Shown here: piece after piece, positions 1 to 9,804 of the stretch
Numbering within the stretch: the stretch's first letter is position 1
How the letters are laid out: the number at the start of each line of letters is the position of its first letter
From: Deltaproteobacteria bacterium
GTDB taxonomy: Bacteria > UBA10199 > 2-02-FULL-44-16
Reading direction: 5' to 3'
Length of the DNA stretch: 9,804 nucleotides
Assembly: GCA_016203825.1 (NCBI GenBank)
Contig: JACQMA010000005.1
Location: 1-9,804 of the forward strand
The notes under the pieces: model-generated
The model's database searches: none
The model's input: only the letters and a program-made list of their open reading frames with translations
Told to the model about the DNA's origin: nothing
Program-made: the position numbers and the translations under genes

Positions 1-2
1 AT

Positions 3-1709
3 GGTGAGCACCGCACGATCCGTCGCGGCACTTCCAACGCCGGCCACATCACCTTGAGATCCTTGCAAATCGCGAGGCTGATAAACGATCAAAATATACG
101 CCGTTGTCTCTCGAACGCCCGGCTGAAATGGCGGCAGCGTCAAGGGGAGGGCAGTAGGTTCCGCTGCTGCCACCGTGGCGAGCGAATCGGCCAACGTGAT
201 GCCCCCTTCAGGGATCTGAAATTCACCATGATCAATCGACACCGATTCAATGACCAGATCCGTGACACCGCGATTTCGAAGGGCCATGACTTTTCGTCCG
301 CCCGGGATCGTCATGGCCGCGGTGCCCTGAAGATCAATGGTAAAAAGAGGAATATCATCAGGGCGAAGGAGTGCACACTGGGCATCGACTTCCCCAAATG
401 GTTTTCCGGAATTCGCGAGCGGAAGCAATTCACAGGCTTCTGTGGTGGGATCGGAACATGGCGTGCATCCCGTGAAGGTGTCATGATTGCCACACATCAC
501 TTTTTGGCAGGAGAAAAATCCTCGCTCCATGGTGGCAGCAACACCCATCTCTCCCATGTCGACAGTATCAACATCTCCTGCGGCAATCGAACCGTCATCC
601 GCAACGACATCAACTTCTGCCGTCCCACCAGCCTCGCGGGCGATGCTCGTCAGTTCAAAGAGGTCCTGGCCGATCATGATCGACTCGTGGACTTCCCCGG
701 GTTCAACTACGCCCGCCCGAGGCCGAAACGTAACTTTCAGCAGAAAGGACTGTTGAGGTTCGAGTGTTCGCGTCAGCGGGTCCAGTGAATCGAGAAAAAA
801 GGAGCCAACTTGCGGAGAAAGTTTCAACGCGATGGACTTTGAACTTGTATTGGTGACGCGGAAAGTGGTTGTTGCTTCATACGAAGGACCAACGTCGTCA
901 GGTGTGTCAGCGATATACGTTCCATTGGAGACCTCCATCCGTTTTCCTTCCGGGATTGAGGTTTCTGTTTGGGCACCATTCGTATCGATTGCGATTTTCG
1001 TGACCTCAACGGAGCGTTCCCCTTGGGATCCACTACAGGACGAAAGCGTCGGTTCAATCGCACCCGTAAAACTTGCCGTGAGAGACGCCCCCATGAGGAC
1101 CTCGTCAGCGGCTTCAAAAAGCGATCCGAGGACGGTTCCCGTGACCAGCGTCATGGCCCCTGAGGGATCGGGGACTTTTCCGGTGAGTGCGGGAAGATCT
1201 GGGAGTTCGGAAGTTGTTCCCGTGGTGAGCGTAAGGTCAGGAATTTCCGCCGACAGGCTCAGGGCATTGATAAAAATCGAAAAGTTTTCGATCGCAATAT
1301 TTCCAGCGCCATCAATGGTACCCGAACCAACGTTCTCTTTTCCCGTTCCCTCGCCCTTACCATTGATCATGATGGGAGCGGGCAGCCCGTGTCCTTCAAA
1401 TGGAACATCGGGAAATTCTGAACCGTCCATCGTGATGGTCGTTCCCGAAATGTGAAGGGGAAACGGATCGACTTCGACGCACAACGGATCTTCGGGGTTT
1501 GTTCCGACATCGACGTTGTCACCCTTGAGCATCACACAGAGTTGCGACGTGAAGATGATGGTGCATGCCGCGCGTTCTGCCCCAATCGACGGCTGTGCCG
1601 GAGTGTCCGTGGCTTCGGGCGGAGGCGGAAAATAGACGAGGGCGTGATCTGCCCCTCCACAACCAAAGACAGAGATCAGACTTATGATGGTGAGCCATTT
1701 TTTCATCAT
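3..1709 (-). CDS. Partial lipoprotein with two ASH-like (choice-of-anchor D-like) domains
   Basis: The frame is open from the start to the left window edge (569 codons, no stop), so the C-terminus is missing. The N-terminus MMKKWLTIISLISVFGCGG is a lipoprotein signal with lipidated Cys at residue 17; Phe at -2 makes the lipobox imperfect. An acidic/Pro-rich linker and a Gly/Thr-rich beta region follow. Residues ~277-346 match the ASH/choice-of-anchor D pattern (FRVTNTSSKSIALKL, then LEPQQSFLLKVTFRP). Residues ~401-445 hold six Cys (401, 406, 415, 418, 426, 445), perhaps three disulfides. A second ASH-like domain starts near 468 (ALRNRGVTDLVIESV, later ILIVYQP). Predicted location is the periplasm or cell surface; the function is unknown, and such domains usually bind other proteins. 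Start choice: ATG 1709 gives the best signal peptide. An in-frame ATG at 1727 and GTG at 1715 are alternatives; the only SD-like GAGG (1729-1732) fits none of the three well. Coding status is firm; the domain names are from pattern recognition. Confidence 0.88.
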   Translation of the reverse strand, partial: MMKKWLTIISLISVFGCGGADHALVYFPPPPEATDTPAQPSIGAERAACTIIFTSQLCVMLKGDNVDVGTNPEDPLCVEVDPFPLHISGTTITMDGSEFPDVPFEGHGLPAPIMINGKGEGTGKENVGSGTIDGAGNIAIENFSIFINALSLSAEIPDLTLTTGTTSELPDLPALTGKVPDPSGAMTLVTGTVLGSLFEAADEVLMGASLTASFTGAIEPTLSSCSGSQGERSVEVTKIAIDTNGAQTETSIPEGKRMEVSNGTYIADTPDDVGPSYEATTTFRVTNTSSKSIALKLSPQVGSFFLDSLDPLTRTLEPQQSFLLKVTFRPRAGVVEPGEVHESIMIGQDLFELTSIAREAGGTAEVDVVADDGSIAAGDVDTVDMGEMGVAATMERGFFSCQKVMCGNHDTFTGCTPCSDPTTEACELLPLANSGKPFGEVDAQCALLRPDDIPLFTIDLQGTAAMTIPGGRKVMALRNRGVTDLVIESVSIDHGEFQIPEGGITLADSLATVAAAEPTALPLTLPPFQPGVRETTAYILIVYQPRDLQGSQGDVAGVGSAATDRAVLT

Positions 1710-1733
1710 CGACACGTTATCGGTCATTCCTCA

Positions 1734-1743
1734 AAAAAGTTGC
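1734..1743 (-). repeat. GCAACTTTTT motif, left arm (minus-strand copy)
   Basis: On the minus strand this reads GCAACTTTTT, immediately upstream of GAGG and the start of the leftward lipoprotein gene. It is the exact reverse complement of 1808-1817. The same motif recurs in the other divergent promoter region at 7301-7310. It could be an operator half-site or part of a lineage-specific promoter element. Confidence 0.55.
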
Positions 1744-1752
1744 TATGGCCAT

Positions 1753-1804
1753 ACGCACCGCTTTGGCGTGGTGCGTCATCGTCTGACGGGGTGCGCCTTT
1801 TTTT
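1753..1804 (+). promoter_or_regulatory. GC-rich hairpins followed by a T7 tract (attenuator-like)
   Basis: ACGCACC (1753-1759) pairs perfectly with GGTGCGT (1770-1776) around a short loop. A second hairpin CGTCA/TGACG (1774-1778 and 1784-1788) overlaps the first, and GGCG/CGCC (1765-1768 and 1794-1797) can close around it directly before seven T residues (1798-1804). The first and second structures exclude each other, as in attenuators, and the second resembles an intrinsic terminator on the plus strand. No gene ends just upstream on that strand, so an ordinary terminator is not expected; if TATGCT at 1817 is the real -10, this hairpin would not even be transcribed with the downstream gene. 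A DNA-level regulatory palindrome or a chance structure are alternatives. Confidence 0.3.
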
Positions 1805-1807
1805 CGC

Positions 1808-1822
1808 GCAACTTTTTATGCT
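1808..1822 (+). promoter_or_regulatory. GCAACTTTTT motif joined to candidate -10 TATGCT
   Basis: GCAACTTTTT (1808-1817) runs directly into TATGCT (1817-1822). The arrangement is matched in the other divergent region, where GCAACTTTTT at 7301-7310 runs into TATACG at 7311-7316. The shared layout ahead of both rightward genes suggests a common promoter element. There is no recognisable TTGACA-type -35 at the usual spacing. Confidence 0.35.
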
Positions 1823-1836
1823 AACTGCCGAAACCC

Positions 1837-4695
1837 ATGCAGATGAGAAACCATCAGGCCTACGTGTGTGTCTTTTTCCTGCTCATCGTGTGCACTCCTG
1901 TTCACGCGGAAGAGGCGACCGGCATGTGTCGCACACCCGCGGAACCAGAGGTGATTCGCTGTGAAGCGAGCAGTGGGTCGTTGTGCGTCGACACCCCGCT
2001 GGGAAGCGTGGTTGGCCAGTCGGTCGTGATCACCGGAAAAATCGATCCTGAAGTGTGGGAGGCGAGCGCGCTGTCGCTCACGATTCAGCATGAGTACACG
2101 CACCGTCTCGCAACGGTTCCGACAGATCATCCACGCAGCAACTGTGATGAACCCCTCACCATCCAAGAACCTTTGTGTCTTGAAGAAGATGGTGTGTTTG
2201 CGGCCCGTTTTCCGCTGTTTGAAGAAGGGCCGCACACGATCCTCGTGACGGCGGGTGGTGGCGGGAGTGGTGCGACACAACAGGTGATCAAGACGAGTCG
2301 TGTGAAACCGCTCACCATTTCGGCAGATGACGTTCACCACGAAGAAGCGAATCATGTTTCAACCGTGACCGTTTCGCTTTTGGATGATTGTTCCTTTTGT
2401 GATGTCATCGGGGCTTCCACGCACGGCGTGACGGTAACGGTGACCAATGTGATCCGTGAGGCAAATGCCGCGGAACGTTCCATTGCGTGTGTGACGACGA
2501 CAGAAGAGGGAGGAGCGGGGACATTTACCGTCGGTGTTCCGCTTGTGCCGGGAGAAAATCATCTTACCGTCACCGCCTGTAATGCGGCGACAGAAGGCAA
2601 CTGTCCCGCCGTGAGGGACATTGTTGTTCGGGAAGGCGGTGAACGCCGCTCGCTCGAGATCCTGACTCCTCCACCTGCGCCGGCGTATGAGTCCTCGGCT
2701 ACGACGACCATTCCTTTCAGTTTCCGCATGTCAGGGAGCGATCCGGGTGCATGTGTGGATGTGATCATCAATCGTCTTCTCCCCGAAGAGGTGTGCTCCG
2801 ATGCCTCGGGGGTTTATCGCAAGACGATCACGCCCCAGGTAGGGATTAATGTCGTGACGGTGAAGAGAGAAGGTATTGAATTTCCGTGGGCGTTTGGCTG
2901 GGGTCATATTGAAACGACTTCGGTTGGCACCGCCGGTATTGTCCTTCCCGCACGTACTGCGACGGATGTCCTGCAACCGCTGCTTTCGAATTTTCTGCGT
3001 TCCGATGAATTTGGGGAAATGGTCGAACGTGTGATGGATGACAGAAGTGTCATTGCGAGAAGCGAAGCGACGCGGCAATCTCCTTCGCCACCTCCATTCC
3101 CCTTTTGCCAGTCCGGTGGCATGGGTCAGGATTTTATCATCGGTATCCGCGGCGTTCCTGCGATCGGCGAGGCGCGCATGGAAGGGATGGCCTTCACGGA
3201 TAATCGCTGGAGCTTTACGATGAACGCCGATGAGGTCGAGGCGGGTATCAATCTCTTCAAAGATGAAAACCACGATGGTCAACCTGATGGTGAGCCCTTG
3301 CCACTCACGATTGGTTTTAAGAAGATGCTCGCTGATCTGGTGATTCAAGTAGAGTCTGACAAGATTCTTTTAACGAGTCCCCACACCGACTGTGATTATA
3401 AAAGTGCTGCCTATTGCCAAGGGTTTCCGGCTCCCCTCATTCCGGCGAATTTTATGGGCAATGCAGGTCGCCTCGGCCATTTTGTCGCCTGTGATGTCGA
3501 TGAAGTGAGTCCCGATCTCGAAGACGTGTGTCGCGCCCTCAATACGGTCAATGCGCAAACGGGGATCATCAGTGAAAAGGTTTTGGATGCCATCAACACC
3601 ACCCTTGTCTGCAAGGGATCGGCTGCCCTCACGGCGATGATGCGTGAAGGGATCGATGATGTGAGCATCGATGCACGCGGCATCGGTGTTGCTGCGAACC
3701 TTCCGCTCGATGTGGACGGCCAACCCGCTGGTGTCGGTGTGATCAGCGATCCGAGCGCTCCAACTGTAACGTCATTAGACCTTGTCTCGCGTGACGGTCA
3801 CCTTCTTGACGTGTCGCTGACGTCATCCTTTGTGAATGGTCTGCTTTTTACCATGACGCAACAGGGGAAGGCCGATATCGATTTCTCGGAAGAGATCATC
3901 AAAGAAAAATTTGGCTTCGATTTTGTGAAACAGTGTGATGAAGCCGAAGAAGCCCACACGTTATGTAATGTTCGCCCTCGGGTTGGTGAACTCTTGGGAA
4001 CGGCACTCACGACCTATGGGTATTATCCGGCGAAGCAGCCCCTGCTCATGCAGATTCATGGAAACAGGGCGCTGACACCGCGCATCTCGATTGCAAAACC
4101 GGAAGAACTCCCCGTGGTGACCGAGGCCACCATGGAGACCGAAGAGGAAACGTCCGTTGTTCCACCAAGCGGAACGCTTTTTGATATCCAGGTGGGTGGT
4201 CTTGAAATGACATTCTTAACGCTCCCAGAAAAGCAACCGATCATCACGTTTGATCTCTCGCTGCTGCTGGCCCTTGAAGTCAGTGGACCGGTTGCCGATT
4301 CAAATGACCCGACGCGCGCTGTCCTCGTTGTCAGGCCTCTTGCCGATCGCTCGCGCCTGAGTCTCGTTGCCCTTGATGCGACGAATGCGACAACGGTCCC
4401 GTCAGAGAGTCTCGTCGCGACGCTTCGGGATAAATTACGTCTCGCACTCTCCGGATACGCGCAACCGGAAAAAGCGATTCGTATTCCGATTCCGAAACAG
4501 GTCGATCTCGCCGATCTCATTGATGACGATTCACTCGTGTCCCTTTTTGGTGTGAAGGAACTCGCCTTGGCTCCCGAAGGATTGTCTTTGACCACCGATC
4601 CCGTGCGGGAACTCATGGTGCTTGGACTCAACGGCTGGTTCACCCAAGTGCTGCACGAGGCAGGAACCGAAATCTCATTTCAATTGCCGCATTAA
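1837..4695 (+). CDS. Large secreted Cys-containing protein with Ig-like repeats; C-terminal half unassigned
   Basis: The product is 952 residues. The N-terminus has a Sec signal (hydrophobic VCVFFLLIVC, then TPVHA with likely cleavage after Ala24), so it is periplasmic, surface-bound or secreted. Three beta-sandwich repeats at ~31-160, ~161-275 and ~276-365 each end in a similar last strand (GPHTILVTA at 131, GENHLTVTA at 239, GINVVTV at 336), typical of bacterial Ig-like domains. Cysteines are frequent, suggesting disulfides. Residues ~476-486 (DENHDGQPDGE) look like a Ca-binding DxNxDG loop. The C-terminal half (~420-952) is beta-rich, with segments such as SLTSSFVNGLLFTM (~661) and IRIPIPKQVDLADLI (~880) that loosely recall BPI/TULIP-type lipid-binding folds; this is weak. 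A dispersed repeat is inserted in frame at ~405-415. ATG 1837 was taken; ATG 1843 (MRNHQ) is equally possible, and neither has an SD. The stop overlaps the convergent VWA gene. Confidence 0.9.
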   Translation: MQMRNHQAYVCVFFLLIVCTPVHAEEATGMCRTPAEPEVIRCEASSGSLCVDTPLGSVVGQSVVITGKIDPEVWEASALSLTIQHEYTHRLATVPTDHPRSNCDEPLTIQEPLCLEEDGVFAARFPLFEEGPHTILVTAGGGGSGATQQVIKTSRVKPLTISADDVHHEEANHVSTVTVSLLDDCSFCDVIGASTHGVTVTVTNVIREANAAERSIACVTTTEEGGAGTFTVGVPLVPGENHLTVTACNAATEGNCPAVRDIVVREGGERRSLEILTPPPAPAYESSATTTIPFSFRMSGSDPGACVDVIINRLLPEEVCSDASGVYRKTITPQVGINVVTVKREGIEFPWAFGWGHIETTSVGTAGIVLPARTATDVLQPLLSNFLRSDEFGEMVERVMDDRSVIARSEATRQSPSPPPFPFCQSGGMGQDFIIGIRGVPAIGEARMEGMAFTDNRWSFTMNADEVEAGINLFKDENHDGQPDGEPLPLTIGFKKMLADLVIQVESDKILLTSPHTDCDYKSAAYCQGFPAPLIPANFMGNAGRLGHFVACDVDEVSPDLEDVCRALNTVNAQTGIISEKVLDAINTTLVCKGSAALTAMMREGIDDVSIDARGIGVAANLPLDVDGQPAGVGVISDPSAPTVTSLDLVSRDGHLLDVSLTSSFVNGLLFTMTQQGKADIDFSEEIIKEKFGFDFVKQCDEAEEAHTLCNVRPRVGELLGTALTTYGYYPAKQPLLMQIHGNRALTPRISIAKPEELPVVTEATMETEEETSVVPPSGTLFDIQVGGLEMTFLTLPEKQPIITFDLSLLLALEVSGPVADSNDPTRAVLVVRPLADRSRLSLVALDATNATTVPSESLVATLRDKLRLALSGYAQPEKAIRIPIPKQVDLADLIDDDSLVSLFGVKELALAPEGLSLTTDPVRELMVLGLNGWFTQVLHEAGTEISFQLPH
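3049..3083 (+). repeat. REP-like dispersed element inserted in frame in the secreted protein gene
   Basis: The element begins GTCATTGCGAG and ends GGCAATCTCC, with GAAGCGACG between; ATTGC and GCAAT form the outer inverted arms. It is translated as VIARSEATRQSP (from residue 405), followed by a low-complexity stretch (SPPPFPF) before a normal beta-rich sequence resumes. Elements of this general form (CATTGCGAG...GCGAAGC...GCAATCTC) are familiar to me as dispersed palindromes in many unrelated bacterial genomes, usually intergenic. Here the reading frame is preserved. Identification as a dispersed repeat rests on recall, since only one copy is present in this window. Confidence 0.75.
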
Positions 4696-7247
4696 AACCG
4701 CAAGACTTGCTCGACGATTTGGTTGTCGCCGATGTTGACGGTGATCCACTTCTTCAAGAGCTGCGGACCCTCGGGGTCGAGGTAGGATGCCTCGAGGTAG
4801 TATTTGCCGGGATTGATTTCGTACGTGACCCAGTCATCAGACGTGGTTCCGTTAATGAGTTCTCGGTCGGCGCCGTATTGGAAAATTTTGAATTTGCACG
4901 TGATGATCCGATTGTTGGCCGTTCGGCCAATGAGTCGAATTCTTCCTGCCGTAAAGATGGCCTCGTGACTCACGGTCTTTGCATCTTCGACCGGGATATC
5001 CCGCAGCCATAACGTAACTCGTTCCTTACCCTCAGCAGGCGTGACGGACATGTTGTCAGCTTTAATATCGTAGTGACCCGGGGCGATATCAAACGCGATC
5101 CAATCGGCGGTGGCGGGTGACTCCAGAATCATGCGGTCCGTCCCCGCCGTATACACGGTGAATGTCGACGTGATGGCATTTTCTTTCGAGTCGCGACTCC
5201 GCAGACGCAATTTTCCTAAGTTGAAGGTTGCGATCGTTTCGGTTGGTTTGTCGGCCGTTACCACGACACCTGGAAGCGGAACGGTCGGCTTGGGACCAAC
5301 TTCAATCTTTTGGAGTTCTGCAATGACATCGTACGTCCCCGGCGGCACGGAGAGTTCTTTCGGTTTTCCACCTTCGTACGATGTGCGCGCAATTTCATCT
5401 TGCGTCTTCTGATCGCGAATCACAAAATCAGCGGCGAGCGGTTTCTTTTCTCCATCGCGCGCGGAGAGCCTCACCATTCCCATTTCAAATTGGACTTCGA
5501 GGGGTGTCGTCTCGGCGGCCTTGACGATGACATTGGTGGCCTTTGTCCGCGGATTCACCGGCATGGCGGGATCTTGGCCGATGAGGAGGAGATCATATGT
5601 TCCCGGTGTCAGCGGGATCGATCCTCCGTCTGTGGGAAACGCGCCACTCGCGACAATCGGTTCTTCTTTGCCCGCACGAAAGACCTGAAACGAAAAAGGG
5701 ATCGCGGTTTTTTGCGTCGTCTTTCCCGTGACCGCAATAAACCCGCGCTGGAAACGGAAGGTGAGGGTTTTCGCTTCACCGGTCGTGACGGCAATACCTT
5801 TTTCGGTCAGCTCCGGTTGATCGGCTCCTTCTCCCGTTCTCGTTGCAACAACATCGTATTGCCCGGGCGTGACGAACGTCGTCGTGACACCGGCTTCACC
5901 GCTGACGGTCGCGGTAGCCCCCATCCCTCCAACGGGAATCAACTGGTAACGCGCGCTGATGTTTTTGTTGTCATCGTCGATGGCGGAAAGGGCGATTGCG
6001 CCGAGCTCAAAGGTAAGGGTTTGCTCGATTTTTGTTTCTGCGAGGACTTCGACGCCCTTGACGATCTTGGACGGTCTTTTTGTTTCTGCGGAGTCGGTGA
6101 ATTCGACGAGGACGTCATAGGTGCCGGGTTCGAGTTTCAAAAACTTCGTTCCGAAACTTTTATCGCGACGTACGACGGATTGTGTCCCGGCCTTGAAGAT
6201 CGTGAGCTCCGTCGGGAGCGGAACGCTTCCAGCCGTCACGATGAGTTTTAAATTGTACGGAACGCTTGCATTGATTGCTTCATCGAGCGAGGCGCGCAGC
6301 TCATTTTCGGTGCGGGCGAGAAAGAACCGGCCGCCCGTTGTGTCGGCGATGCAGCGGAGTTTTGCTTCGTCTTCAGTGGTGACGTCGAAGCCGACGACGT
6401 GCACGGTCGTCTTCTGAGTGGCGCGCTCGAAACCTCCGGCGACGACGCATGGATCTTCGTTGCAATTGTCCGCACCGTCCGCAACGAGGACGATGATGCG
6501 GTCAGCTTGACTTACGACGGGGAAATCGCCCTCAGCCGCACGAAGGGTCGCGGCCAGCGGACTCATGCCCTTCGCGGTGATCGGGTCGAGGCCCTTTTGA
6601 AATGTCGCCCCACTCGGTTCGCCTATGGGTGCGATGTTTTCTGTGTCTTCACAATTATTTTCAGTCGTTGGCGACGTGGAACCGAAAACACGCAGTCCCA
6701 CATTTCGTGGCGTATCCGTTGGTGCGGTCACGGACGCCAAAACGTCGAGGACAGATGTGCGCAAGAGCGAAAATTTATCCGTGGCCGTCGTCGAGAACGG
6801 TGCGCTCATACTTCCCGAGGCATCGATGAGGATATTGATATTCGATTGGGATTCGAGGAGCTTTGGTGTCGCCGCGACGGGCTTCGGTTCTATCGCCGGT
6901 GTTTCCGTTGGTGGGGGAATGGCAGGTGCGGCGAGCGACTGAACCCCTTCGGGCTTGCCCGCCGTAGCTTCAGCGGAGGCGGATGGTGTGCCGGGGAGCT
7001 GGGTTACAGCAGGGACTTGGTTTTGGTCTGACACGTCAGACTTGTCAGACAGGTCCGACTGGCCAGCTGCCTCAAGCGTCGGAGAAGGCACCTGCTGGAC
7101 TGCGCGGGCAACGGGTTGTGTGGTTTGTTCAGGCTTGTCCGACGTGTCTGACTGGTCCGACAGGTCGGACTTCTTTCCACAAGAAATGAGGAAAAGGACC
7201 GCTAAGACCACCAAGGGGGTTCTGAGTCGTAGGTGCCTCAAAAGCAT
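4692..7247 (-). CDS. VWA-domain lipoprotein with six tandem PGxYD beta modules
   Basis: The product is 851 residues from ATG 7247. The signal (RHLRLR, then TPLVVLAVLFLISC) is a classic lipoprotein signal with Cys23. A disordered linker (24-135) carries two SD-repeat arrays and a palindromic repeat. The VWA domain spans ~136-330: MIDAS DASGS at 142-146, GMSPLA near 227-231 (Ser where Thr is common) and Asp257 in VADGAD, so metal binding is likely intact; Cys 199, 262, 267 and 299 may form disulfides. Six modules of ~83-90 residues follow (331-414, 416-500, 501-589, 590-677, 678-767, 768-851). Each has a central PG-x-Y-D/Y turn (at 374, 461, 548, 636, 723, 813), resembling carboxypeptidase-regulatory/PEGA-like folds. 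Likely role: metal-dependent ligand binding in the periplasm or at the surface. A GTG at 7286 would add 13 residues before the signal, which is less likely. No SD is evident. The 3' end overlaps the convergent neighbour by four bases. Confidence 0.93.
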   Translation of the reverse strand: MLLRHLRLRTPLVVLAVLFLISCGKKSDLSDQSDTSDKPEQTTQPVARAVQQVPSPTLEAAGQSDLSDKSDVSDQNQVPAVTQLPGTPSASAEATAGKPEGVQSLAAPAIPPPTETPAIEPKPVAATPKLLESQSNINILIDASGSMSAPFSTTATDKFSLLRTSVLDVLASVTAPTDTPRNVGLRVFGSTSPTTENNCEDTENIAPIGEPSGATFQKGLDPITAKGMSPLAATLRAAEGDFPVVSQADRIIVLVADGADNCNEDPCVVAGGFERATQKTTVHVVGFDVTTEDEAKLRCIADTTGGRFFLARTENELRASLDEAINASVPYNLKLIVTAGSVPLPTELTIFKAGTQSVVRRDKSFGTKFLKLEPGTYDVLVEFTDSAETKRPSKIVKGVEVLAETKIEQTLTFELGAIALSAIDDDNKNISARYQLIPVGGMGATATVSGEAGVTTTFVTPGQYDVVATRTGEGADQPELTEKGIAVTTGEAKTLTFRFQRGFIAVTGKTTQKTAIPFSFQVFRAGKEEPIVASGAFPTDGGSIPLTPGTYDLLLIGQDPAMPVNPRTKATNVIVKAAETTPLEVQFEMGMVRLSARDGEKKPLAADFVIRDQKTQDEIARTSYEGGKPKELSVPPGTYDVIAELQKIEVGPKPTVPLPGVVVTADKPTETIATFNLGKLRLRSRDSKENAITSTFTVYTAGTDRMILESPATADWIAFDIAPGHYDIKADNMSVTPAEGKERVTLWLRDIPVEDAKTVSHEAIFTAGRIRLIGRTANNRIITCKFKIFQYGADRELINGTTSDDWVTYEINPGKYYLEASYLDPEGPQLLKKWITVNIGDNQIVEQVLRF
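6951..6982 (-). repeat. 32-bp palindromic repeat, copy 1 (in VWA lipoprotein linker)
   Basis: On the coding (minus) strand it reads CCGCCTCCGCTGAAGCT followed by ACGGCGGGCAAGCCC. The outer arms CCGCC/GGCGG and the inner GCT/AGC are symmetric. It matches 7965-7996 on the other strand at 29 of 32 positions, while the flanks do not match. It is translated as SAEATAGKP in the Ala/Pro/Ser linker between the lipidated Cys and the VWA domain. Confidence 0.8.
7026..7061 (-). repeat. GTCNGACNN array, four units, in VWA lipoprotein linker
   Basis: Four consecutive 9-nt units each consist of the palindromic heptamer GTCNGAC (7026, 7035, 7044, 7053) plus two variable bases. The array encodes SDLSDKSDVSDQ (residues ~64-75). 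The varying middle base and spacers show that the heptamer, not a fixed 9-mer, is conserved. Related arrays lie at 7137-7170 and 9616-9631. Confidence 0.85.
7137..7170 (-). repeat. GTCNGACNN array, four units, just after the lipidated Cys
   Basis: Heptamers GTCCGAC, GTCTGAC, GTCCGAC and GTCGGAC start at 7137, 7146, 7155 and 7164, with two-base spacers. They encode SDLSDQSDTSDK three residues after Cys23 of the VWA lipoprotein. The Ser-Asp content would give a flexible acidic tether close to the membrane anchor. Confidence 0.85.
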
Positions 7248-7287
7248 AAAACGACCAGTACCATGGCATTGAGCATTTGAAAACACT

Positions 7288-7310
7288 CAACTTTTTGTTA
7301 GCAACTTTTT
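7288..7310 (+). repeat. Tandem CAACTTTTT motif pair
   Basis: CAACTTTTT occurs at 7288-7296 and again at 7302-7310 (as GCAACTTTTT from 7301), 14 bases apart. The motif matches both arms of the inverted repeat in the other divergent region (1734-1743 and 1808-1817). Occurrence in both shared promoter regions makes it a candidate operator or promoter element. Confidence 0.5.
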
Positions 7311-7346
7311 TATACGACAGACGATAAGAGGGGGGTGGGTGACCAT

Positions 7347-7350
7347 GAGG
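7347..7350 (+). promoter_or_regulatory. Shine-Dalgarno sequence of the TPR protein gene
   Basis: GAGG lies seven bases before ATG 7358, the only in-frame ATG after the upstream stop TGA (7346-7348). It is the only well-placed SD in the window and fixes the start of this gene. Confidence 0.75.
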
Positions 7351-7357
7351 TTCTACG

Positions 7358-9804
7358 ATGACAAGCGGTGGTAAGGATCTGACATTGCGGGAGAAGTGTT
7401 TCAGTCTGACGGGCGAAGACCTGGTCAATACATGTCTTTCGTTGGCGGAGGAGTGCGACCATCAGCAGGAAGAAGGGGTAACGAGTTTTTCCCTGACGCT
7501 CCCGGGTGCATCGGCATCTGTCGCCTATGATTCCTATGAAACGTGTGGTCAGGCGGCGACTGGTGTTTCGGCGGCGTTTGATGCGGGCAGGCTTACGAAG
7601 ATCAATGAAAAACAAGTGGCGGCGAAAGTTTTTTACGATGCAGCAACGCAATTCTACGATAAGGGAAAATTTCAAGATGCAGTTGGGCAGCTCGAAATTG
7701 CCTATGATTTATTCCCAAAGCCAGCCATTCGAGAAAATATAGCGACGACGTATCGAAAAATTGCAGAGACAGAGACGGACCCTCGTGAAAAAGCGAAAGC
7801 CTACTATAAAGCCGCACACCTCTGGAGTCAGGGTGGCAACTATACCGAGGCCCTTGTCGACGCGCGGCGGGCAGATGCCCTGGTTCCCAATGAGAAAGTC
7901 AAAGCTCGCATCGCAGAACTCGAGGGACTCGCAGCGGGCACAGCTCCCGCATCTGCCGTCGCTCCCGCCGCCGCTGAAGCTCCGGCGGGCGAGCCCGCTG
8001 CGGCAGATCCCACGCAACGTGTCGTCAAGGTAACAACGGTTGAAGATCTCCCCCGGATGACGGCAGCGACACCATCGCGATCAATCGTCATCGTGATGAT
8101 GCCACGGTCATTTGAGAATGCTCAAAAGCTTCAGGAGAAAGCAGCAGATATGGCGTCCGACGCTGATATCTACGTCATCGATCTGGACGATGCCACAACG
8201 ACGACGCAGCTCATGGCTGGCCTCACGTCACTCGGTGTTTCCCAGGGCGACACGCCAACGTCCATCCGATTTTTTAAACGCACTCCCGATCAAGCCCAGT
8301 ATGTCCTCGTCGATGGGCAACTTGAACCAAAGGCCGATTACGCCTTCACCCCGATCAACTTCGGGAATATCAAGGCCGCCGGAGATGGTACGACATCGGT
8401 TGTTCTTCTTGTGGGTGACCCTCTTACAACATATTCAGAACAGAAAAAAATTCGCAAAGCCATTGGAGCGGATGTTCGTTATTTCATTCTTGATCCACAA
8501 CAAGGGGGATTGGTCAAGATGGCCGAACAAAATCCGCCGCGTGGTTTTGGTATTACTGTGCAAAAAGCAAACGAAGCCTCTCGCATTTATGCTCGAGCCA
8601 AAGGTGAAGGGCAAACGTGGCAATGGTTCGACTTCGATGAAGGGACGGGAAAGCTCAAGCCCGTTGATGACCTGACCTTGCAAGTGGCACAGCTGAGGGA
8701 AGATGAAATACGACGGGCAGAACGTTCGCGTGCAAGTCTTCTTTACAGTGAAGCCAAACGGTTATGTGATCGTGGGGACTTTGAAACCGCCGCACAAAAA
8801 TACATCGAGGCCCATAACATCGCACCTGATTCTCTTTATCCCTGGAAGATTGGTGAATGTTATGCTCGTGGTGGGAGTCTTTTTCAAGCCATCGCCTTTC
8901 TGCGATATCATCGTGATCACTATCCGCGTGCTGGCGAGCGTGCAGTTGTTGACCAAAAACTTGCAGAGCTTGAGGCAAGACTTCCCAAGAATCCACCGCC
9001 GGGTCCTCAGTTAGAAAAAACAATGCTTCAGGTGACAAGAGACCTCGAACGACGACAGCGTGAGGAAGCGGCAAAGCGCGCGTTAGCTGCGGGTGGTGTC
9101 GAACTTCAGCGTGACATCCTGGGACCTGAGGCTGTCGCTGGAACAAAGGTAAAATCCGTCCCTGCAGCGGCCTCCACAGTTGCTGGCGATGAGGCACAAA
9201 GAATTGTCGAGGAAGCGCTGAGGCCAGCGCCTGCAGGCCCAGAAACAGCTGCTGAAATCGACCGCACGCTGCAAGCCTCGGCGGCCATGAAGGAAGCCGA
9301 TGACCTCTTCAATCGAAAGCGATATGATGATGCCCTTGCACAGTATGATCATGCCCACAACCTCGATCAACGTCCCGCGGCACTCCTTGGCAAGGCGCGA
9401 TGCCATCAGGCGCTCAACCGTCGCGCTGAGGCGATTGCGGCTTATCGGGCCTATCTGACCGCCAGTCCGAGCGTGGGAAACAAGGCGGATATTGAGGCCG
9501 TGATTTCTGCCCTTGAGCTTCCTGATCAATCGCCGCCCCCGCCATCCGGAGCTGAGGCTGTTGCTGAGCAGTCGGGTCCACCAAAACCTGCACCGCCCGC
9601 CACATCATCTGGCGCGTCGGACGCGTCCGACCCCGTCGCCGAATTGGTAAAACGACACACATCGACGCCCGATCGTTTTCAATTTACCTACCTTGATGAT
9701 GCCAATGTAGCGACCGCGGGGGATCTCGAGGGTGCGATTGTGGTGGTCGGTGAACCGGATCATTTTTGGGTTGAGGAGGTGCAGCAACAACTTCGCGACG
9801 AGCG
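7358..9804 (+). CDS. Partial TPR protein with cysteine-less thioredoxin-like-looking modules
   Basis: The frame is open from ATG 7358 to the right edge (815 complete codons, no stop), so the C-terminus is missing. No signal peptide or membrane segment is seen, so it is probably cytoplasmic. Order: an unassigned N-terminus with four Cys (1-80); TPR-like helices (~88-190; FYDKGKFQDAVGQLEIAYDL at 99-118, and GNYTEALVDARRADALVP); an Ala/Pro linker (~190-214); an alpha/beta module (~241-322); a second (~345-430); a charged helix (~441-463); TPR (~464-540; DRGDFETAAQKYIEAHNIAP); a linker with repeats; TPR (~645-703); an acidic/Pro linker; and the start of a third module (IVVVGEPDHFW, ~794). The alpha/beta modules follow a thioredoxin-like order (strand, helix, IYVIDLDD strand, then DTPTSIRFFK with possible cis-Pro) but lack CxxC, so a redox role is unlikely. 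A scaffold or protein-interaction role is inferred. The SD GAGG fixes the start. Alternative: the modules are unrelated Rossmann-like folds. Confidence 0.9.
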   Translation, partial: MTSGGKDLTLREKCFSLTGEDLVNTCLSLAEECDHQQEEGVTSFSLTLPGASASVAYDSYETCGQAATGVSAAFDAGRLTKINEKQVAAKVFYDAATQFYDKGKFQDAVGQLEIAYDLFPKPAIRENIATTYRKIAETETDPREKAKAYYKAAHLWSQGGNYTEALVDARRADALVPNEKVKARIAELEGLAAGTAPASAVAPAAAEAPAGEPAAADPTQRVVKVTTVEDLPRMTAATPSRSIVIVMMPRSFENAQKLQEKAADMASDADIYVIDLDDATTTTQLMAGLTSLGVSQGDTPTSIRFFKRTPDQAQYVLVDGQLEPKADYAFTPINFGNIKAAGDGTTSVVLLVGDPLTTYSEQKKIRKAIGADVRYFILDPQQGGLVKMAEQNPPRGFGITVQKANEASRIYARAKGEGQTWQWFDFDEGTGKLKPVDDLTLQVAQLREDEIRRAERSRASLLYSEAKRLCDRGDFETAAQKYIEAHNIAPDSLYPWKIGECYARGGSLFQAIAFLRYHRDHYPRAGERAVVDQKLAELEARLPKNPPPGPQLEKTMLQVTRDLERRQREEAAKRALAAGGVELQRDILGPEAVAGTKVKSVPAAASTVAGDEAQRIVEEALRPAPAGPETAAEIDRTLQASAAMKEADDLFNRKRYDDALAQYDHAHNLDQRPAALLGKARCHQALNRRAEAIAAYRAYLTASPSVGNKADIEAVISALELPDQSPPPPSGAEAVAEQSGPPKPAPPATSSGASDASDPVAELVKRHTSTPDRFQFTYLDDANVATAGDLEGAIVVVGEPDHFWVEEVQQQLRDE
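7965..7996 (+). repeat. 32-bp palindromic repeat, copy 2 (in TPR protein linker)
   Basis: It reads CCGCCGCCGCTGAAGCT followed by CCGGCGGGCGAGCCC on the coding strand and differs from copy 1 (6951-6982, opposite strand) at three positions. It encodes AAAEAPAGEP within the Ala/Pro linker between the first TPR region and the first alpha/beta module. Copy 1 is read in the same frame (SAEATAGKP). Confidence 0.75.
9616..9631 (+). repeat. GTCNGACNN pair in TPR protein linker
   Basis: GTCGGAC (9616-9622) and GTCCGAC (9625-9631) are separated by GC, giving the same 9-nt period as the arrays at 7026 and 7137. They encode SDASD in an Ala/Pro/Ser linker before the third alpha/beta module. With only two units, chance is less easily excluded here. 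Confidence 0.6.

Follow-up and report, generated by a model that had tools for sequence, protein, structure and literature searches.

The window, that is the whole stretch of 9,804 nucleotides analyzed here (Deltaproteobacteria bacterium, assembly GCA_016203825.1, contig JACQMA010000005.1, positions 1 to 9,804), carries three short arrays of the palindromic heptamer GTCNGAC repeated with a period of 9 nt. We suggest that GTCNGAC arrays are 9-nt DNA repeats linked to genes of the family TIGR04258, and that the TIGR04258 protein likely recognizes its own repeat and would drive its copying to new sites. We put the probability of this reading at roughly 0.55. New here is the TIGR04258 gene as partner of the arrays, and this gene link is well supported. 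The causal role of the protein in array spread and the copying engine we infer. A literature search for GTCNGAC, TIGR04258 and "four helix bundle suffix" found no paper, with most subscription papers outside its coverage. In the literature on 9-nt or nonanucleotide repeats, on four-helix-bundle proteins with repeats and on these heptamers, we recognized nothing as such a system.

The TIGR04258 gene as partner of the arrays

We scanned the contigs of GTDB for arrays of four GTCNGAC units and obtained at least 114 stretches. The taxa listed are Lentisphaerae, Verrucomicrobia, Prevotella, other Bacteroidales, Deltaproteobacteria, Myxococcota, WOR-3, Hydrogenedentes and others, a phylum breadth which is a lower bound and from which no rates were derived. 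A comparison of the DNA with the arrays masked revealed a stretch of 160–570 bp that is common to the unrelated loci L054, L063, L073, L087, L116, L132 and L135 and sits between or beside the arrays. Its product is a four-helix-bundle "suffix" protein. All five proteins scanned match NCBIfam TIGR04258 above the curated cut-off, four of them match TIGR02436 above cut-off, and four match PF05635, the S23 family of 23S rRNA intervening-sequence proteins (IVP), in each case below cut-off. One of the five carries PF01396, a topoisomerase-type DNA-binding zinc ribbon. In pairs among L073, L087, L132 and L135, DNA similarity of at least 150 bp spans roughly the gene only.

A structure model of a family member (mean predicted local distance difference test score, pLDDT, of 91.7) shows long helices that fit a four-helix bundle, with the further helices of the suffix after them. 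The top Foldseek matches, both with probability 1.00, are 2gsc (XCC0516; TM-score by target 0.77, E = 0.03) and 2rld (BT_0352, S23 family; TM-score by target 0.76, E = 0.11), and none of the matches is at E <= 0.001. A sequence profile search of solved chains returned 2gsc alone, with E = 0.83. As judged from the model, the fold of the partner protein is probably a four-helix bundle of the S23/IVP type. If the TIGR04258 protein drives copying, its role is likely that of a nucleic-acid-binding partner.

The gene and the arrays are physically linked. In a TIGR04258 profile search 10 of the 113 listed GTDB array loci were found to contain the gene, each time 0–24 bp from an array. The profile combined 14 members, of which 6 came from the same array loci, and the match in L112 was weak (E = 1e-6). 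The background density of the gene is about 1 per 10 Mb, as estimated with rounded sizes for the 46 genomes of the window's phylum, which together hold 10 genes. Seen from the gene, GTCNGAC arrays of at least two units are present in 17 of the 51 TIGR04258 loci fetched. In 12 of these loci an array lies inside the gene; 10 have one upstream and 4 have one downstream, at a distance of no more than 300 bp. The arrays inside the gene are in frame and are found near its start, at its end or in the loop ahead of the suffix domain.

Other TIGR04258 genes are accompanied by other words, and it seems that each gene lineage has an array word of its own. Beside or inside TIGR04258 genes that have no GTCNGAC, we found the 9-nt words CCNATAAGN, CTCCCAGAA, CCCATAAGA, AAAGGGACA, GACCTTAAC, CCAATTAGA and others. 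Some genes have the 10-nt words CCTAGAANNN and GTCCGTGTTC, and in L285 there is a 7-nt word. At L248, L250, L257 and L258 the arrays flanking TIGR04258 have a 10-nt period and a CCTAG or TAGG word. Self-match at a lag of 9 nt, averaged over the 160 bp adjoining the gene in 34 TIGR04258 loci without GTCNGAC arrays, is 0.376 upstream (33 loci) and 0.351 downstream (34 loci), as compared to 0.25–0.30 at other lags in the same flanks. At ten loci around PF01797 genes, examined as controls, a single 9-nt row of 2.0 copies turned up. One of the words, CCNATAAGN, is present in 14 of 100 genomes of the genus of Prevotella ihumii, the three richest having 214, 136 and 36 hits; its reversed control hits 2 of the 100. 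The TIGR04258 gene is found in 13 of these 14 genomes versus 44 of the 86 others (p = 0.0026).

Gene and arrays also occur together at the level of genomes. The distribution of the arrays is patchy: three-unit GTCNGAC arrays are present in 5 of the 46 genomes of the window's phylum (the window's own genome G000, as well as G019, G025, G030 and G043), and reversed-pattern controls gave 0 in all genomes. The longest array in the phylum comprises 25 GTCNGAC units within a 662-aa open reading frame (G043:C347:5527-5749). The gene is likewise present in five of these genomes (G000, G025, G030, G035 and G043), and the arrays are found in 4 of the 5 genomes with the gene versus 1 of the 41 without (p = 1.5e-4). 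A second word, CCNATANGN, occurs in G000, G035, G040 and G043. With GTCNGAC or CCNATANGN arrays counted, all 5 genomes with the gene have arrays, versus 2 of the 41 others (p = 1.5e-5); CCNATANGN was picked after the TIGR04258 gene of the window's own genome had been read. G035 speaks for specificity: neither of its two TIGR04258 genes has Ser-Asp arrays, three-unit GTCNGAC arrays are missing from the genome, and CCNATANGN occurs at four sites on other contigs.

Among the loci listed in the GTDB scan, 35 of 42 array genomes have the gene versus 0 of 7 genomes in which the motif is a coincidence of coding. The seven controls, of which five are actinomycetes and two look collagen-like when read, had been fixed before we searched for the gene. 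We hand-picked the 42 test genomes from the other loci, taking one locus for each genome; L100 is not included. Victivallis vadensis (L166-L167) is an example of a confined distribution. In this genome of 5.2 Mb all 19 three-unit matches lie within about 17 kb (178822-195480), in a prophage which also holds a TIGR04258 gene. The region is called a prophage on the basis that 5 of 10 proteins in or just beside the array stretch match tail, adaptor, head or terminase families. Four-unit arrays are present in 3 of 100 genomes of the P. ihumii genus, with 734 matches in P. ihumii itself and 2 and 3 elsewhere; reversed-pattern controls in P. ihumii gave 5 versus 927 and 2 versus 734 matches.

Constraint on the DNA and not only on the protein

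A sequence-only reading of the window had proposed that selection or copying acts on the DNA, beyond what a Ser-Asp protein repeat would require. Our codon analysis bears this out. In the predicted lipoprotein that carries two of the three arrays, the probability of the codons given the amino acids is 10^-8.8 for the 9 Ser-Asp pairs of the open reading frame, a count which takes in one pair outside the arrays, ending in GAT. All eight array Asp codons are GAC, and GAC makes up 34% of the Asp codons across four open reading frames of the window. The X codon preceding each array Ser ends in G, again in eight of eight cases. That reading had held the wobble position of Asp and the choice of the Ser codon to be constant. 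This is right for Asp and wrong for Ser: only the TCN box is used with TC fixed, and the third base, which is the N of GTCNGAC, is free.

The variation between units is distributed in the same manner. In neighboring units the centre and spacer sites differ in 47–52% of the comparisons in P. ihumii (163 pairs) and in 46–49% at the other GTDB loci (474 pairs); the six core sites differ in 1–10% and 1–11%, respectively. Core mismatch in inner units is 0.7% in P. ihumii (846 sites) and 2.7% at the other loci (2418 sites). Since the arrays were seeded with three exact units, these values favor a clean core, but the gap between core and spacer is still large. A motif screen over 64 trimers with 0–3 loop bases and 0–6 gap bases in 119 array loci, which had been preselected by GTCNGAC, found at least 5 runs only for GTC-N-GAC with a gap of 2 nt and for its register twin.

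These figures bear directly on ordinary tandem-repeat slippage, by which a 9-nt seed would expand as a microsatellite and be kept where it is harmless. Some arrays are near-homogeneous, as in L042 with 31 units that share one centre base, and would fit this explanation. A microsatellite should, however, vary equally at all sites of the unit. What we find is 46–52% at the centre and spacer sites versus 1–11% in the core, such that the core is nearly constant and three sites per unit vary freely. The same word is moreover found at unrelated sites in many phyla. We thus consider slippage improbable, and the plain spreading microsatellite, one of the options that had been named for the window, is not supported.

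Is the constraint a matter of coding? We classified 85 arrays from the GTDB loci, each with four or more units and a variable centre base, a set which omits constant-centre arrays and arrays within 150 bp of a locus edge. Confident open reading frames hold 19 of them and non-coding-like DNA another 19, with 47 ambiguous; positions drawn at random from these loci are 47% confident, 8% non-coding-like and 45% ambiguous. Of the 19 arrays in confident reading frames 13 are read as Ser-Asp and 3 each in the other two frames. In 360 kb of P. ihumii we count 24 arrays of at least three units, 19 of them between genes and 5 within short low-score reading frames, as called with a simple, home-made gene caller and equally simple rules for the frame counts. 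If Ser-Asp-X linkers were selected at the protein level and codon bias produced the pattern in the DNA, this could account for the predominance of the Ser-Asp frame in the 19 arrays and for its use in both open reading frames of the window. The copies in the two other frames and in non-coding DNA and the result of the codon test speak against it. As a full account this explanation is already refuted by the non-coding copies, and altogether we hold it to be extremely improbable. The copies in other frames (3 + 3) and outside genes (19 of 85 non-coding-like; 19 of 24 intergenic in P. ihumii) show that the motif is not confined to Ser-Asp frames. The finding that would have refuted the sequence-only reading, a motif limited to such frames and absent from non-coding DNA, was thus not obtained, and a cause at the DNA level is supported. 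The constraint acts on the DNA, beyond the need of a Ser-Asp protein. It had also been supposed that a period of 9 nt allows the arrays to spread without frameshift. A choice of 9 nt for the sake of the frame is unsupported, because arrays in non-coding DNA have the same period of 9 and some related classes have a period of 10.

Counts of GTCNGAC in viral sequences have to be read with care. The arrays of 41 of the 69 viral stretches have a constant centre base, and 46 of 100 viral arrays of at least three units are in frame 2. Judged by their reading, constant-centre GTCCGAC arrays in frame 2 (L170, L173, L185, L217) look like collagen-like coding for Gly-Pro-Thr (GGT CCG ACN). Collagen-like coding is a trap for counts of this motif. 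We do not take every viral match as a genuine array, as the constant centres and the excess of frame 2 suggest collagen-like coding in many of them.

The arrays of the window and their hosts

The window contains 14 GTCNGAC heptamers where 3.63 are expected, and none of 200 shuffles reached 14. Array 1 (7026..7059) has units at 7026, 7035, 7044 and 7053 and array 2 (7137..7170) at 7137, 7146, 7155 and 7164. Both are part of the linker in a predicted lipoprotein with a VWA domain (minus strand, 4692..7286, 864 aa; PF00092, E = 2.9e-6) and read SDLSDKSDVSD and SDLSDQSDTSD, respectively. The reading of array 2 begins three residues past the predicted Cys of a lipobox, which was recognized by eye. 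Array 3 (9616..9631), with units at 9616 and 9625, reads SDASD in a TPR-repeat open reading frame (plus strand, 7358..9802, 815 aa; PF07719) which continues past the end of the window. As the core is palindromic, the arrays themselves are strand-neutral. The two four-unit arrays in the lipoprotein linker and the two-unit form in the TPR gene on the opposite strand had been noticed from the sequence. We confirm them as exact matches; all three consist of exact units with a 9-nt period and give Ser-Asp-X in both open reading frames.

The lipoprotein and the TPR protein are hosts of the arrays and stand outside the repeat system itself. Ahead of the VWA domain the window protein has SDxSD repeats and 0 of 29 homologues have them, with the stretch before the domain being compared and with two homologues (P0012, P0014) beginning just ahead of it. 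Over whole proteins SDxSD is found in 1 of the 29 (P0022). For the two long neighboring open reading frames (window 3-1727 and 1837-4695) there is no Pfam match at E <= 0.001.

The assembly to which the window belongs comprises 1.11 Mb in 230 contigs and is 84% complete. The two-unit GTCNGAC pattern is found in it at 7 sites, all inside the window, and 0 times with the reversed pattern. The word of the second type, CCNATANGN, which is the word of the genome's own TIGR04258 gene, forms one dispersed array (C172:2924-2956).

Weighing of the evidence and a possible mode of spread

A number of observations weigh against a TIGR04258 protein that copies its own repeat. The nearest to hand concerns the window. 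Its arrays have the word of TIGR04258 genes in other genomes (the 17 of 51 loci above), and the single TIGR04258 gene of its own genome, which is split over two contig ends, carries CCTATANGA and not GTCNGAC. Therefore the arrays of the window stand without a cognate gene in the assembly; in the 84% that is covered no GTCNGAC-type gene was found. This is the weakest point for this window, the gene being missing, lost or never resident. Furthermore, arrays occur without the gene in G019 and G040 and in 7 of the 42 array genomes, and G030, with a gene of the second type, shows no CCNATANGN site. The gene is present in 57 of the 100 genomes of the P. ihumii genus and only 3 have GTCNGAC arrays. 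Part of the co-occurrence may be due to shared taxonomy, because five of the seven control genomes are actinomycetes and the gene is found in those 57 genomes regardless of arrays. A 9-nt lag with z > 3 in at least one flank was seen at only 15 of the 34 other TIGR04258 loci. In the 69 viral array stretches no TIGR04258 gene was found, and in the five TIGR04258 proteins scanned there is no catalytic domain.

There is, finally, an order in the centre bases which is covered by no explanation given here. Purine centres stand ahead of pyrimidine centres in 20 of 21 mixed arrays of P. ihumii (p = 2e-5; arrays in L148-L165) and in 32 versus 15 cases at other loci (p = 0.02). Such a strand-symmetric dyad order fits hairpins in principle. 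The hairpin energy of the arrays is no better than that with centre bases and spacers permuted among units (n = 16, p = 0.82; n = 15, p = 0.19), which also counts against the proposed reading, and we have discarded hairpin folding as the cause of the order.

Several of these points would be expected if TIGR04258 were a passenger. Another factor, such as a reverse transcriptase, a transposase or host recombination, would then make the arrays, and the gene would home into them or contain them as low-complexity parts. The lack of a catalytic domain and the arrays without a gene are in line with this, those of the viral stretches included. It is less easily reconciled with the array word, which differs among TIGR04258 genes, or with the arrays, which adjoin the gene or intrude into it. 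We identified no other partner, though shared stretches such as L084-L132 and L042-L065 were not examined. We regard the passenger explanation as rather unlikely.

A Y1 transposase might also move the repeats, in the way RAYTs move REP elements. The layout of gene-linked, dispersed palindromic repeats is similar, as far as it is outlined in PMC3116915, and the transposase family PF01797 is present in 38 of the 46 genomes of the phylum, including G025, G030 and G043. It was, however, found neither in G000 nor in G019, both of which have arrays. We have thus dropped PF01797 as the driver and think a role of this kind very improbable.

We return to the TIGR04258 protein as the agent of copying. 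The following steps could be envisaged. The protein would bind its array as DNA or RNA. Together with a host or partner polymerase, or in a recombination step, it could then add units and seed new arrays. Copies in coding DNA would survive best in the Ser-Asp-X frame within flexible linkers, because a unit of 9 nt would preserve the reading frame. The arrays of the window may be dispersed copies from a GTCNGAC-type gene which has since been lost or which is hidden in the 16% that the assembly does not cover. A wider claim is that TIGR04258 proteins are sequence-specific writers of an unrecognized class of selfish DNA. Each lineage would have its own word of 9 or 10 bases, arrayed around and inside its gene and scattered through the genome in any frame and in non-coding DNA, and GTCNGAC would be one such word. 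On this claim we are more tentative and rate it at somewhat less than even.

How does this system relate to known ones? In Rickettsia palindromic elements palindromic DNA is inserted in frame in coding sequence, which resembles GTCNGAC; these elements are longer single insertions and are not known to form 9-nt arrays. In the outline of PMC3116915, REP elements are short palindromic repeats beside a RAYT gene, with one class per gene lineage, and dispersed in the genome. The likeness of REP/REPIN-RAYT to the GTCNGAC system, which is also gene-adjacent, has one word per gene lineage and is dispersed, extends as far as that outline goes. The partner is, in contrast, a four-helix-bundle protein here and a Y1 transposase there, and the repeat is a tandem 9-mer and not an extragenic palindrome of 20–40 nt. 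GTCNGAC copies are in addition found within coding DNA, the partner gene included. The modelled fold of the TIGR04258 protein is similar to that of the S23 proteins and of Avd from diversity-generating retroelements, which the PF05635 family is said to resemble in the part of PMC10053308 that deals with it. TIGR04258 differs from both by its extra C-terminal suffix domain and by the arrays beside or inside the gene. PARCEL, according to its abstract (PMC2996958), consists of tandem palindromic DNA repeats which are read as protein and have likely spread horizontally. GTCNGAC arrays share the tandem palindromic DNA that is read as protein, but the coding unit of PARCEL has 25 residues versus 3 here, and that abstract names no four-helix-bundle partner.

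If the proposed reading is true, low-complexity tracts such as SDxSDx and TGQTSQT, and others, in proteins of many phyla would be invasions at the level of DNA. TIGR04258, a family known here by its name alone (four helix bundle suffix), would obtain a testable function, and a protein which is not a transposase would join the known means of spreading short DNA. As the array word can be compared with the gene subtype, the claim is directly testable in any genome collection.

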